Part shown: positions 1,946 through 6,786 of the stretch, piece after piece
Position numbering within the stretch: position 1 is the first letter of the stretch
Layout: each line of letters starts with the position of its first letter
From: Sphingomonas sanxanigenens DSM 19645 = NX02
GTDB taxonomy: Bacteria; Pseudomonadota; Alphaproteobacteria; Sphingomonadales; Sphingomonadaceae
Assembly (NCBI RefSeq): GCF_000512205.2
Contig: NZ_CP006644.1
Span: forward strand, 4,292,501-4,356,500
Direction: 5' to 3'
DNA: 64,000 bases
Notes under the pieces: generated by a model
The model's input: the letters and a program-made list of their open reading frames with translations, nothing else
Database searches by the model: none
Told to the model about the DNA's origin: nothing
Position numbers and translations under genes: made by a program

Positions 1946-3556
1946 TTACAACCCGTACTGACGCCGCAGGATATCCGCCGCACGCTCGCCCACGATCGTG
2001 CAGGGTGCCTGGGTATTGCCGGTCGGCACCTTCGGCAGGATCGAACCATCCGCCACGCGCAAGCGCCCGACACCGTGGACGGCAAGCGAGGCATCGACCA
2101 CCGCCATGTCGTCCAGCCCCATCCGCGCGGTGCCGCACTGGTGCCAGTAGGTGACGGCCGCATCGCGGATGAAGGCGTCGTCGAGATCGTTGCCGTCCCC
2201 CGGAATCGCCTCACGGCTGACGAAGGGATCGAACGCCGCCTGATTGCCCAGGTCGCGGCAGAGCTTCACGCAGGCCCGCGCCGCCTCCATGTCGCGCGGA
2301 TCGGACATCATGTTGGCATCGACCACCGGTGCCATGGCCGGGTCCGCCGATTGCAGCCGCACCTGCCCGCGGCTGTGCGGATGCGCGAGCCCCGCGAACA
2401 TCGTCCAGCCATGCTCGGGGACACCGCAGGCGGCGGTGCGTTCGCTCGGCACGGGGAACTCGACCTGGCAGAACAGCAGGTCCGGCGCCTCCAGATCGGG
2501 CCGGCTCTTCCAGTACAAGGTCGCCTCGCTGCCGCTGTTGCGGGGCGCGATCGGCGCGCGATATTCCCAGGTGAGGCCGAACGAGACATGATCCTGCAGG
2601 TTCCGGCCGACGCCCGGCAGATGGCGCACGAGCGGGATTCCCAGCCGGTCGAGTTCGCCGCGGTCGCCGATGCCGGAGAGCATGAGCAGCTTCGGCGTAT
2701 TGATCGCACCGGTCGAGATGATGACCTCGGTACCTGCGGTGATCGCCCGGATCCGGCCCGCCAGCTCGATTTCCACGCCCGATGCCTGCGTGCCGTCGAA
2801 CAGGATCCGGCGGACCAGCGTGTCGGTCAGGATGGTCAGGTTCGGACGGTCGGCGACGGGGTGGACATAGGCGCGGTACAGCGAGTGGCGCCGGCCGTCG
2901 CGCACCAGCATGTCGGTGTAGGCGGCCCCTCCCCCGCTCTCCATCATCCGCCCGTTGGGGCTGTCGAAGGTCGGAATGCCAAGCGCGCTGGCGGCGTCCA
3001 GCAGGCCGCCGGCGATCGGGCTCGGATCGTTGGCCGGCTGGACCCACACCGGCCCCGCGGTGCCGCGATAGTCGGGGTCGGGTTTGCCCTGCCAGTTCTC
3101 GATGCGGCGATAGATGCCGAGCACGGCATCATAGCCCCAGCCATCGTCGCCGGACACGGCAGCGAAATGGTCCCAGTCGCTGCGGTGGCCGCGCGCCCAG
3201 ACCATGACGTTGACGCTGGACCCGCCGCCGAGCCCCTTGCCCATCGACATGGAGAGTGCCCGCCCGCCGAGATGCGGGTTCGGCTCGGCCGCGAAGCCCC
3301 AATCGCGCTCGCTGCCGAGGTTGAGCGGCCAGCGGCCGGGATCCATCACGACCTCGTCCTCGTCGCTGCCGCCGGCTTCGATCAGGAGCACGCTGCAGCC
3401 GGGGTTTTCGGCGAGGCGGCGTGCGATCACCGAACCCGCCGCGCCGGCGCCGCAGACGATGAAATCATAAGCGGTCTTGACGTCGGCCCGGCGCCGGGCC
3501 TGGTTCTCGCGCGCACGCCGATCGAAGTCGGCATCGCCGAAGGATGAATGAGACAT
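1946..3556 (-). CDS. GMC-family FAD-dependent oxidoreductase (choline-dehydrogenase-like)
   Basis: A 536-residue flavoprotein of the glucose-methanol-choline family. The FAD-binding GAGAAG fold is at residues 36-41, the GMC signature GKGLGGGSSVN lies near residue 115, and the C-terminal catalytic pair is His472 (YWHQCGTARMG) and Asn514 (TGNTQAPC). These enzymes oxidise primary or secondary alcohols (sugars, choline, polyethylene glycol, aryl alcohols) and pass electrons to oxygen or an acceptor. The substrate cannot be read from sequence. The ATG at 3556 is chosen because AGAAGG precedes it at good spacing; an open extension upstream has no family resemblance. No signal peptide is visible, so it is probably cytosolic. 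It converges on the GntR gene. Confidence 0.9.
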   Translation of the reverse strand: MSHSSFGDADFDRRARENQARRRADVKTAYDFIVCGAGAAGSVIARRLAENPGCSVLLIEAGGSDEDEVVMDPGRWPLNLGSERDWGFAAEPNPHLGGRALSMSMGKGLGGGSSVNVMVWARGHRSDWDHFAAVSGDDGWGYDAVLGIYRRIENWQGKPDPDYRGTAGPVWVQPANDPSPIAGGLLDAASALGIPTFDSPNGRMMESGGGAAYTDMLVRDGRRHSLYRAYVHPVADRPNLTILTDTLVRRILFDGTQASGVEIELAGRIRAITAGTEVIISTGAINTPKLLMLSGIGDRGELDRLGIPLVRHLPGVGRNLQDHVSFGLTWEYRAPIAPRNSGSEATLYWKSRPDLEAPDLLFCQVEFPVPSERTAACGVPEHGWTMFAGLAHPHSRGQVRLQSADPAMAPVVDANMMSDPRDMEAARACVKLCRDLGNQAAFDPFVSREAIPGDGNDLDDAFIRDAAVTYWHQCGTARMGLDDMAVVDASLAVHGVGRLRVADGSILPKVPTGNTQAPCTIVGERAADILRRQYGL

Positions 3557-3606: not shown

Positions 3607-4416
3607 TCAGCGCGCTGTGGAGGACTGGCGGGCGGCTTCGTCGATCACGTCGGCGACGACCCTGGGCTGGGTCAGGAAGAGGGCATGGCTGGCTGAGACA
3701 TTGGTCACCCTGGCGCCGATGCGCTTGGCCATGCCCTGCAGCATGCGCTGGTCGAAGGCCTTGTCCTCCGTGGCGATCACCGCCCAGCTCGGCTTGGTCC
3801 GCCACGCGGCGTTCTGCAGCTTGACGCCGAAGCTCGCCATGTTGATCGGCACCTGCGAGGCGTTCAGGAAGGCGGCATCGGCCGGCGTCGCGTCCGCCGC
3901 GAAGCCGGCGACGAACTTGTCCGGCTTGATGAAGCCGAAGCCGTCCTTGCCGGTTTCGATCACGAATTCGGGCGGCGTCTTATAGCCTTCATATTGCTGC
4001 GCGGTGGTCTCGCCGGCGTCGGGCGACAGCGCGGACACATAGACCAGCCCGCGGACCCGGGGGTGCACCCCCGCCTCGGTGATGATCGTCCCGCCCCAGC
4101 TGTGGCCGACGAGGATGGCGGGACCATCCTGCCGGTCGAGCGCACGCCGGGTCGCGGCGACATCGTCGGCGAAGGAGGTCAGCGGGTTCTGGACGACGGT
4201 CACATGATAACCGCGTGCGGTGAGTTCCTGATAGACGCCGCGCCATCCCGATCCGTCCGCGAAGGCGCCGTGAACCAGCACGACATTCTTCACGGCCGCG
4301 GTGGCCGCCGTCCCGGCGGGATTTTCATGCGATTGCGCCAGCGCCGGCTGCTGGACGCCGACAGTGGCAGCAGCAGCGGCGGCAACGAATGCAACGGTGC
4401 GGATCGTCTTGAACAT
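3607..4416 (-). CDS. Secreted alpha/beta hydrolase
   Basis: A 269-residue hydrolase with an N-terminal signal peptide (MFKTIRTVAF, then an Ala-rich core, cleavage near ALAQ at residue 28), so it is predicted to be periplasmic. The fold signatures are VLVHGAFADGSGW (oxyanion region), the nucleophile elbow GHSWGG with Ser106, and the C-terminal His near residue 244 (SASHALF). It belongs to the broad esterase/lipase-like group PF12697, and the substrate is unknown. The ATG at 4416 is supported by GGAGGG four bases upstream. It is divergently transcribed from the OhrR-like regulator, and the shared promoter region carries two copies of a palindrome, so that regulator probably controls it (inference). 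Confidence 0.88.
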   Translation of the reverse strand: MFKTIRTVAFVAAAAAATVGVQQPALAQSHENPAGTAATAAVKNVVLVHGAFADGSGWRGVYQELTARGYHVTVVQNPLTSFADDVAATRRALDRQDGPAILVGHSWGGTIITEAGVHPRVRGLVYVSALSPDAGETTAQQYEGYKTPPEFVIETGKDGFGFIKPDKFVAGFAADATPADAAFLNASQVPINMASFGVKLQNAAWRTKPSWAVIATEDKAFDQRMLQGMAKRIGARVTNVSASHALFLTQPRVVADVIDEAARQSSTAR

Positions 4417-4446
4417 GGAACCCTCCATTGATATTGCGGCAATTGT

Positions 4447-4505
4447 TATCGCGATATCCATATCGTCGATGTGGATCGGCTTGTCCAGATAAATTTATCG
4501 CGATA
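4447..4505. promoter_or_regulatory. Twin palindromic operator, probable MarR/OhrR-like binding sites
   Basis: The perfect palindrome TATCGCGATA occurs twice (4447-4456 and 4496-4505), each time inside the longer shared word TTATCGCGATAT, with 49 bases between equivalent positions. Both copies lie in the 124-base divergent region between the hydrolase and the regulator. MarR-family dimers bind such short palindromes, usually overlapping their own promoter. The copy near the regulator is about 35 bases from its start codon, and the other about 31 bases from the hydrolase start. Confidence 0.7.
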
Positions 4506-4540
4506 TATGTTACGGCGGTAATGCGTAGGAGAATGAATTG

Positions 4541-5017
4541 ATGTCAGATGCAGCGACGGTGCCGGTGCCGCTGGAAGACCAGCTCTGCTTCGCGATCTAT
4601 TCCGCCGGGATCGCGATCCAGCGGGCCTACAAGCCGCTGCTCGACGGGCTCGGGCTGACCTATCCCCAGTACCTCGTGCTCAACGTGCTCTGGCGGCAGG
4701 ATCTGCAGACCGTCGGCAGCATCGCCCAGCAACTCGCGCTCGAATCCAGCACGCTCACCCCGTTGCTCAAGCGCCTCGAGACCGCCGGCCTGGTCGCGCG
4801 CGCGCGCAATCCGGCGAACGAGCGGCAGGTCGTCGTTTCACTGACGCCATCGGGCGATGCGCTGCGCTTCCGCGCCGGCTGCCTTGGCAATACGTTGCTG
4901 GAGGCTTCGGGCGAGACGCCGGCCGCGCTCGCCGACCTCAACCGCGAGGTCACCCGCCTGCGCGATGCGGTCTATGACCATATCGGCGCATGGGCGGCGC
5001 CCGAGGCGGCCGGCTAG
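4541..5017 (+). CDS. OhrR-like MarR-family regulator, probable thiol peroxide sensor
   Basis: A 158-residue MarR-family winged-helix protein with the N-terminal OhrR signature QLCFAIYSA. Cys16 aligns with the peroxidatic Cys22 of Xanthomonas OhrR. Tyr30 and Tyr41 keep exactly the spacing of its Tyr36 and Tyr47, which hydrogen-bond that cysteine. A second Cys at 114 could be the resolving residue of a 2-Cys type. OhrR repressors release DNA when organic hydroperoxides oxidise the cysteine. Here the partner is not ohr/osmC but a secreted hydrolase, so the true signal may differ. AGGAGA eight bases before ATG 4541 decides the start. It ends three bases from the convergent SDR remnant. Confidence 0.86.
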   Translation: MSDAATVPVPLEDQLCFAIYSAGIAIQRAYKPLLDGLGLTYPQYLVLNVLWRQDLQTVGSIAQQLALESSTLTPLLKRLETAGLVARARNPANERQVVVSLTPSGDALRFRAGCLGNTLLEASGETPAALADLNREVTRLRDAVYDHIGAWAAPEAAG

Positions 5018-5020
5018 CGC

Positions 5021-5202
5021 TCAGGCGGTCGGCACGGTCCCGCCGTCGATGACATATTCGGTGCCGGTGATGCTGCCCCACGATCGGACGCCAGGAACGC
5101 GATCAGGCTGGCGACCTCCTCCGGGCGGGACGGCCGGCCGATCGAAATGCCGCCCAGCGAGTCCATGATGCGCTTGCCTTGCAAGCTGAGAAACGGGGTC
5201 AT
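5021..5202 (-). pseudogene. Short-chain dehydrogenase remnant: internal deletion plus frameshift
   Basis: The reading starts MTPFLSLQGKR, the usual opening of a classical SDR. It jumps straight to the C-terminal SDR segment (GRPSRPEEVASLIAFLASDR) and then, in a shifted frame, to TGTEYVIDGGTVPTA before a stop at 5021. Roughly 190 codons with the cofactor loop and the catalytic Tyr-x-x-x-Lys are missing. Removing one base near 5080 would restore the tail frame. Its ATG overlaps the stop codon of the NTF2-like gene (ATGA), the layout of a once-intact two-gene operon. It cannot encode an active enzyme. Confidence 0.85.
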
Positions 5203-5528
5203 GCCACGATCTCCAGACCCGCGATCTTCCCGCCATCCAGCGTGAAGCCGTAGCGCAGATCGACAGGACTGCCGGGGAAGTCGCCGGCGACATGGCCGGT
5301 CACGACCGTCCGGTCGCCCTCCATCGCGATGGCAACCGGCTCGACGGTGTAGCTGTATTTCTGCGAGGATGCCGTCTTCCACTGCCGGATCGCGTCCCTT
5401 CCGGAATAAGCGTGTCCCTCATCCCGGACGATGGCTTCGTCGGAAAAGCATCGTGCAACGCCATCCGCATCCTTCGCTGCGTCAGCGGCAAAATAATCGG
5501 CAATGGGCTTCGGTAGCGCGATCGCCAT
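5199..5528 (-). CDS. NTF2/SnoaL-like small protein
   Basis: A 109-residue protein with the cone-shaped NTF2-like pattern: an N-terminal helix ADYFAADAAKDADGVARCF, then DEAIVRDEGHAYSGRDAIRQW and antiparallel strands with VVTGHVAGDFPGSPVDLRYGF. The family includes polyketide cyclases, ketosteroid isomerases and many uncharacterised proteins that bind small hydrophobic ligands. No firm function can be assigned. It sits directly upstream of the SDR remnant, with start and stop codons overlapping, a pairing common in detoxification or tailoring operons. The gene itself looks intact although its partner has decayed. Confidence 0.75.
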   Translation of the reverse strand: MAIALPKPIADYFAADAAKDADGVARCFSDEAIVRDEGHAYSGRDAIRQWKTASSQKYSYTVEPVAIAMEGDRTVVTGHVAGDFPGSPVDLRYGFTLDGGKIAGLEIVA

Positions 5529-5824: not shown

Positions 5825-6786
5825 ATGAAAGCGGCGATTTACGACAAGGCGGGCGGCCCCGACGTGCTCAGATATGCGGATGTGCCCGATCCGGTATGCG
5901 CCGACGACGGTCTCGTCATCCAGGTCAAGGCGGTGTCGATCGAGGGCGGTGACACGATCAACAGGGCCACGCAGGAGCCACCCCATCCCGCCTATGTCAT
6001 GGGTTACGCGGCTGCCGGAGAGGTTGTCGAGGTCGGGCGCAATGTTCTCGGCTTCTCCATCGGTCAACCTGTCACGACGATGGGAATGGACGGCTCGCAC
6101 GCCGAATTGCGCTCAGTATCGGCGAAGACGAGTTGGGCAGTACCTGATGGGCTCGATTACGGCGCGGCTGCCGCAATCCCGATCGCCTTCGGCACGCTCA
6201 CCAGTGCCTGCACGCGGCTGGGCGGCTCCGGGAAAGCGAGACGGTGCTCGTTCAGGGCGGCGCGGGCGGCGTGGGCATTGCGCTGATCCAGCTGGCCAAG
6301 CTGGCTGGCGCACGCGTCATCGCTACCGTGTCGGGTCGGGAGCGGGCGGACCGACTGCTGCGGCTGGGCCTTGATGCCGCGATCGACCATCGGGCCGAGA
6401 ACGTCGCGGACGCTGTCCGCCGGTTGACGGATGGAGCCGGTGCCGACCTGGTCGTCGACCCCGTCGGCGGACATACACTCCCAGCTTCCCTTGCGTCGCT
6501 GAAGCCGCATGGGCGGCTCGTATTTGTCGGCAACGCTGGTGGCGGTGAACTGACACTGGATCTGTGGCCCGCGATGATGGCCAACCTGTCCCTGACCGGC
6601 GTGTTCATGGGGGCCGAGTTCGACAAGGAAACGGTTTACCAGAACGTAGCCGGGTTGCTCGCGCAAGCCGCGCGCGGCGAAATCGACGTCGTAATCGATA
6701 GGCGCTTCGCGCTCGCCGAAGCGGCCCAAGCGCACCGGTATATTGCCGAGAATCAAGGGTTCGGTCGGGTTCTACTGATTGCCTGA
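5825..6786 (+). pseudogene. Frameshifted MDR-family NADPH:quinone oxidoreductase / alcohol dehydrogenase
   Basis: Two adjoining frames make one medium-chain dehydrogenase/reductase of about 320 residues. The first frame (MKAAIYDKAGGPDVLRY through AIPIAFGTLTSACTRLGG) supplies the catalytic domain. The second (ETVLVQGGAGGVGIALIQLAKLAGA through GFGRVLLIA) supplies the Rossmann cofactor domain with its GGAGGVG loop. The join falls at about 6225-6232, where one missing base explains the shift. The first frame otherwise runs to a stop at 6286. No zinc-ligand pattern is seen, pointing to the quinone-oxidoreductase type. It is either a recent pseudogene or a sequencing error; the decayed SDR nearby favours real decay. 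Confidence 0.82.

Follow-up and report, generated by a model that had tools for sequence, protein, structure and literature searches.

The 124-bp gap between a divergently transcribed hydrolase gene and an OhrR-like regulator gene in the window (the whole 64,000-nucleotide stretch analysed here) belongs, judged by sequence, to an EstR–EstC locus, and the two identical palindromes in it are very probably the operators of a cysteine-based redox repressor of the EstR/SydR type. The EstR/SydR system itself is already known, having been published in two relatives. What is new is the compound, outward-extended form of the operator and its placement ahead of various peroxide-linked target genes. We favour, with some reserve, a model in which each operator is an outward tandem pair of sites 15 bp apart, the two operators making up a mirror-symmetric four-site array (outer–inner–53 bp–inner–outer) that would take two dimers per operator. 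In the same model the array is a portable module found before at least three target enzymes (the EstC esterase, another alpha/beta hydrolase and the Ohr peroxidase); in seven loci it precedes an ohr–estC pair.

The two copies of the perfect 10-base palindrome TATCGCGATA lie between the hydrolase ATG at 4416 (reverse strand) and the regulator ATG at 4541 (forward strand), a gap that spans 4417–4540, and are separated from the respective start codons by 30 bp on the hydrolase side and 35 bp on the regulator side (Table 1). Both sit within a common 12-mer, TTATCGCGATAT; an earlier note on this DNA, which had described two perfect 10-base palindromes in a shared 12-base word within a 124-base divergent region, thus had the layout right. 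Shine–Dalgarno-like sequences precede both start codons, GGAGG at 4422–4426 (reverse strand) for the hydrolase and AGGAG at 4527–4531 (forward strand) for the regulator. The first hydrolase ATG given by the ORF finder, at 4461, would place site 1 inside the gene; the start at 4416 is preferred on the strength of its Shine–Dalgarno sequence and the alignment to EstC. In the sigma-70 promoter scan no candidate passes.

Table 1. Features of the EstR–EstC-type locus in window coordinates
Feature	Position	Strand	Basis or remark
GMC oxidoreductase ('cdh' neighbour of estC), likely start ATG 3556	1946–3556	−	Annotation of window
EstC-like alpha/beta hydrolase, 269 aa	3607–4416	−	Pfam Abhydrolase_6; alignment to EstC
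O1 outward half-site GCGGCAA (putative)	4436–4442	+	Family consensus GCGATAA; 5/7 match
O1 core palindrome TATCGCGATA, hydrolase-proximal (putative operator)	4447–4456		Sequence; corresponds to EstR site OI
Candidate hydrolase −35 box TGGACA, adjoining O2	4482–4487	−	Sequence
O2 core palindrome TATCGCGATA, regulator-proximal (putative operator)	4496–4505		Sequence; corresponds to EstR site OII
O2 outward half-site TTACGGC (putative)	4510–4516	+	Half-site TTATCGC, family consensus TT(T/A)T(C/T)GC; 5/7 match to TTATCGC
EstR/SydR-type MarR-family regulator, 158 aa, Cys16 + Cys114	4541–5017	+	Sequence comparison
SDR gene ('scd'), C-terminal remnant	5071–5175	−	Against intact gene in L106 (A. fabrum)
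SnoaL/NTF2-like protein	5199–5528	−	Same neighbour in A. fabrum and S. meliloti

The regulator (Pfam MarR) has X. campestris OhrR as its best solved relative (E 4.8e-36), which, together with its orthology to EstR/SydR, bears out the description 'OhrR-like' in the earlier note. Two loci served for closer comparison: the EstR locus of A. fabrum C58 (L106) and the pSymA locus of S. meliloti ml47 (L107), a strain other than that of the SydR paper. Over 147 aa the regulator is 72.1% identical to EstR and 71.4% identical to the SydR-type protein of S. meliloti, and it carries Cys16, Tyr30, Tyr41 and Cys114, the residues that mark membership of the EstR/SydR group. Across an alignment of 100 regulator sequences, window copies and distant paralogues included, position 16 is cysteine in all 100 and position 114 in 96. 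The hydrolase shares 71.1% of its residues with EstC and 69.3% with the S. meliloti hydrolase, has a GHSWG motif and, by alignment, a Ser106–Asp218–His244 triad equivalent to S101, D213 and H239 of EstC (the residue numbers in L106 agree with the published triad). Its N-terminus is hydrophobic and, by eye, resembles a signal peptide. The gene order scd–estR–estC–cdh/zdh is present here with scd reduced to a remnant, a GMC oxidoreductase (cdh type) beside the esterase and the NTF2-like neighbour retained. Further along the same stretch, at 5825–6786 on the forward strand, a zinc-binding/quinone-type dehydrogenase is split over two frames with a break at about 6250–6290, possibly a pseudogene or a sequencing error.

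The binding behaviour of the palindromes is documented in the two relatives. In A. tumefaciens, EstR is reported to repress its own gene and that of the esterase, estC, by way of two operators, both of which carry TATCGCGATA and were footprinted with DNase, and EstC is reported to have esterase activity (PMC5201249). In S. meliloti, SydR is described as repressing itself and SMa2023 via two perfect TATCGCGATA repeats, with sensing through C16, NaOCl as a strong inducer and repression of about 1,000-fold, and its gel shift disappears once both repeats are cut (PMC11633110). The proposal of the earlier note that one regulator controls itself and the hydrolase, the palindromes being its operators, is thus very probably right: it has been demonstrated for the orthologous EstR and SydR, and the pair is conserved in 80 of 86 related loci (see below).

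The genome-wide search for the word that the earlier note had suggested yields six copies of TATCGCGATA (6,580,298 bases, 2 contigs; reversed-pattern control, three), of which the four outside the gap all fall within mechanical ORFs of 276–422 aa, and it confines the 11-mer TTATCGCGATA to this gap, where both of its genome-wide occurrences lie. A pair of TATCGCGATA words with starts 40–70 bp apart is present in 6 of 385 class genomes, our own included, against 0 of 385 for the reversed control. In the window alone, with one mismatch allowed, the count is unremarkable (three matches, a number reached by 13 of 100 shuffles). Allowing one mismatch in TTATCGCGATA gives 97 matches genome-wide, the exact ones among them (52 on the forward and 45 on the reverse strand, where the reversed control gives 15 and 22), and no second pair of separate places within 70 bp of each other appears in that list besides the window's. 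Of 28 of these places that were inspected (L108–L135), 25 fall inside mechanical ORFs of 150 aa or more, the exceptions being L116 and the overlapping L117/L118; among six one-mismatch places looked at more closely (L146–L151, one of them the L116 site), L147 has no ORF over it but one of 106 aa, and L150 has none at all. Position inside an ORF is weak evidence, since mechanical ORFs cover much of the DNA in a G+C-rich genome. The centre of L117 (G000:C1:567666) is a one-mismatch copy, TTGTCGCGATA, which has no partner, falls in no ORF of 150 aa or longer and lies some 4 kb away from the genome's ohr–ohrR operon; next to it are an ABC-transporter-like ORF and some unclear frames. Further weak targets of the regulator beyond this gap are possible and we claim none.

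Conservation among relatives supports the palindromes as regulatory sites. The loci were the best 80 of 321 named loci and those from eight same-family genomes (own included; 8 of 199 matched at E 1e-45). Of 93 loci, 86 were kept after dropping L002 and L003 (window duplicates), L004 and L005 (paralogues), L006 (no relative) and L033 and L064 (less than 150 bp upstream); the 86 upstream regions include the window itself (L001). A palindrome pair with at most three mismatches in total is found in 80 of the 86, and 49 pairs are perfect. The divergent gene next to the regulator encodes an EstC-like hydrolase in 68 loci, is ohr in 12 (with an EstC-like hydrolase behind the ohr gene in six of these 12) and is neither in six, and the correspondence is exact: the 80 regions with a pair are those with a divergent EstC-like hydrolase or ohr, and the six without a pair have neither. 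Five of these six (L007, L008, L034, L050 and L053) retain one TATCGCGATA-like site 43–59 bp before the regulator, with no more than one mismatch, which is what a division of roles would predict, site 1 acting on the target gene and site 2 on the regulator. In 72 of the 80 loci a GTC[AC]A word resembling a hydrolase −35 box stands 12–16 bp before site 2.

The genes behind the array vary. In L024, L026, L041, L044, L045, L055 and L097 a single array is followed, divergently from the regulator, by ohr and then an EstC-like hydrolase, an apparent ohr–estC unit; in L010, L012, L013, L048, L059, L072 and L094 the array precedes ohr and no EstC-like hydrolase was found in the fetched stretch. Ohr was identified by the Ohr model above its curated cut-off in L012, L048, L059, L072 and L094 and by 62–91% identity to the L059 protein in the others. 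Five loci found by the pattern only all adjoin related regulators (5/5), 48–74% identical to that of the window; their divergent genes encode an EstC-like hydrolase (L096), Ohr and then an EstC-like hydrolase (L097), Ohr (L094) or another alpha/beta hydrolase (L095 and L098). With regulators 48–56% identical, L094, L095 and L098 are the most independent of the loci, and L106 and L107, near relatives of loci that the set already contains, are not independent. Regulator, hydrolase and site or sites also occur together in contigs labelled Opitutaceae, Bordetella and Trabulsiella (L058, L062 and L093), which hints at horizontal transfer or, for a metagenome bin, misassignment.

When 77 non-redundant regions (the 80 less three near-duplicates) are aligned, a recognisable further half-site appears on the outward sides only: GCGATAA at −11 to −5 of site 1 and a TT(T/A)T(C/T)GCG-like word at +14 to +21 of site 2. 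Both are TTATCGC read outward and begin 5 bp past the palindrome edge, and this therefore amounts to a tandem site 15 bp away. In the same alignment the central part of the spacer is almost devoid of information, so that mere relatedness does not account for the signal. Scored over 70 loci (seven more being removed for a spacing of 60 bp or more) without using the outer sites to place the array, matches to TTATCGC at offset 5 average 6.27 of 7 at O1 and 4.63 of 7 at O2, against 1.64 (sd 0.15) and 1.83 (sd 0.13) for shuffled flanks. The inward means in these loci are 2.33 and 3.21, a weak excess inward of O2; on the inner flank of site 2, positions −6 and −5 are conserved as A and the −35-like word is present too, so that some flank conservation has causes other than the half-site. 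The 33 loci with dissimilar spacers, for which registration counted the outer sites, give 6.18 and 4.58 outward and 2.03 and 3.12 inward, and the five pattern-only loci match at 7, 6, 6, 7 and 7 positions of 7 at site 1 and at 4, 3, 4, 5 and 5 at site 2. Searched genome-wide with up to three mismatches, half-site plus palindrome gives 28 matches (reversed control, 11), of which the best two, and the only ones with two mismatches, are the window's two operators in mirrored orientation.

The published footprints can be read in the same light. EstR is reported to protect +16 to −18 and −46 to −82 of estC, with the start site 34 nt upstream of the ATG (PMC5201249). Placed on L106, these blocks fall at 2875–2908 and 2936–2972, reaching outward 14 and 21 bp and inward 10 and 6 bp and so covering the outward half-sites, in a mapping that depends on the published start site and may be off by a base or two. 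We judge it somewhat likelier than otherwise, from half-sites and footprints together, that an EstR-type operator takes a second dimer, and the second SydR gel-shift complex, ascribed to non-specific binding in PMC11633110, may be that second dimer.

From these observations a working mechanism can be proposed. A dimer of the reduced regulator on O1 would cover the hydrolase promoter and start region, and a dimer on O2 would occupy the regulator promoter, next to the hydrolase −35 box, so that both genes would be repressed while O1 and O2 are filled. Organic hydroperoxide or hypochlorite, by oxidising Cys16, would then release the repressor and allow hydrolase and regulator to be made. Each operator would be a compound site in which an outward half-site is set one 15-bp step from the perfect palindrome, with a second dimer, or at least one extra subunit, presumably seated on the outward half-site about 1.4 turns round the helix; the two compound operators would form the symmetric four-site array. 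In this genome the evidence consists of sequence, conservation, synteny and key residues, whilst binding, repression and release on oxidation are taken from the orthologues, from which we infer function in this organism.

Other arrangements of protein on the array have to be weighed against this one. A single dimer might span some 35 bp at each operator, the outward half-sites being contacted by its wings in the flanking grooves; this would suit the strong conservation of only the proximal half of the outer site and the description, in the available parts of the EstR paper, of one named palindrome and one protected block per operator (PMC5201249). We nevertheless consider it unlikely, since the conserved outer word reads as the same half-site and its distance from the main site is exactly 15 bp on either side, and since the outer position holds a near-complete second palindrome in L015, L035, L046 and L075 (one mismatch each) and the perfect palindrome in L010 and L082. 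Less probable still is that looping or cooperative bridging joins the two palindromes into a single unit, a possibility raised in the earlier note, which placed them 49 bases, or about five helical turns, apart on one face of the DNA. The offset of 49 bp corresponds to 4.67 turns at 10.5 bp per turn. A free search between 40 and 70 bp returns spacings of 48–56 bp in 72 of the 80 loci and of 64–68 bp in the other eight, which look, by sequence, as if registered on an outer site; after registration, which was limited to 44–61 bp and used the outer sites, so that its range is not independent, all spacings are 48–56 bp (mean 52.7 bp, or 5.02 turns; sd 2.0). Bounded spacing with a mean so near five turns speaks for bridging, a scatter of 9 bp and the 4.67 turns of the window speak against it, and the −35-like box between the sites, which may itself bound the spacing, can account for the bounds. 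Helical phasing (resultant 0.47 at 10.5 bp per turn) is not claimed, as shared ancestry and the same box could produce it. Looping is moreover not needed, because SydR is reported to bind and repress each half of the S. meliloti region separately (PMC11633110), and EstR to protect its two sites at different concentrations (PMC5201249); same-face co-operation thus finds no support.

Two alternatives leave the EstR-type operator out altogether. An ordinary OhrR–ohr type system, acting through an OhrR operator, might be suspected from the structural match to X. campestris OhrR and from the 12 of 86 loci in which related regulators with the same array adjoin ohr. The operator, however, differs from the TACAATT-AATTGTA of OhrR as given in PMC5201249, and no box of that type was seen in the 124-bp gap, where ohr is not adjacent either. 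The genome has two paralogues of the regulator, 49–51% and 48% identical to it, and the 350 bp before each contain no TATCGCGATA, even with one mismatch. One of them is the ohrR of a separate ohr–ohrR operon, which has the inverted repeat CACAAT-TAT-ATTGTG, and not TATCGCGATA, before ohr. An OhrR system in the ordinary sense is thus very improbable here, and the EstR-type switch of this genome is separate from its classical Ohr switch. That the palindromes arose by chance, or are bound by an unrelated protein, is scarcely credible. The 10-mer alone is admittedly not rare, with twice as many copies genome-wide as its control, yet the pair persists across the family whilst the middle of the spacer between its members does not, the pattern-only matches lie without exception beside related regulators, and for the orthologues EstR footprinting refutes the idea (PMC5201249).

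Operators of an EstR/SydR-type repressor remain our reading of the palindromes, and the gap is now placed in a known redox-switch family, with EstR and SydR connected as the same locus. The outward extension of the operator could explain both the long published footprints and the tight repression. The presence of the array before ohr, and before ohr–estC pairs in seven loci, supports the view that EstC, a poorly understood hydrolase, is part of the peroxide/hypochlorite response; if that is true, the pairs behind the array would make EstC a partner of Ohr in the peroxide response. Among the matches listed in a search of the open-access literature there was no further paper on the EstR/SydR system or on outward half-sites, a result that does not establish their absence from print.

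Of the known systems, EstR–EstC of A. tumefaciens/fabrum C58 is closely alike: regulator and esterase are orthologous, the triad and Cys16/Cys114 are the same, the order is divergent and there are two TATCGCGATA operators, 53 bp apart there and 49 bp apart here. The outer half-sites match at 5/7 and 5/7 in the window and at 7/7 and 5/7 in A. fabrum. The neighbours differ, in that the A. fabrum order runs zinc-binding dehydrogenase, hydrolase, regulator, short-chain dehydrogenase and NTF2-like gene, with the SDR gene intact, whereas the window has an SDR remnant and a GMC oxidoreductase. SydR–SMa2023 shares the two perfect TATCGCGATA repeats and, as reported, sensing through C16, and its GMC neighbour is as in the window; the S. 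meliloti record, in which the gene table is incomplete, gives GMC oxidoreductase, hydrolase, regulator and NTF2-like gene. The L107 regulator shares 86.5% of its residues with EstR and the L107 hydrolase 89.7% with EstC, which makes the two named systems one and the same locus. In the SydR text (PMC11633110) a word search returned neither EstR nor Agrobacterium nor esterase.

The OhrR–ohr systems are more distant kin. They have in common with the EstR/SydR type the MarR/OhrR fold and cysteine sensing, and a further likeness lies in the two adjacent binding motifs described for S. meliloti OhrR, and stated in the same source to occur in other OhrR operators also. They differ in operator sequence and usual target gene, and also in operator number: a single operator is counted for A. 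tumefaciens OhrR, whilst EstR has two separate ones, unlike OhrR's in sequence (PMC5201249).
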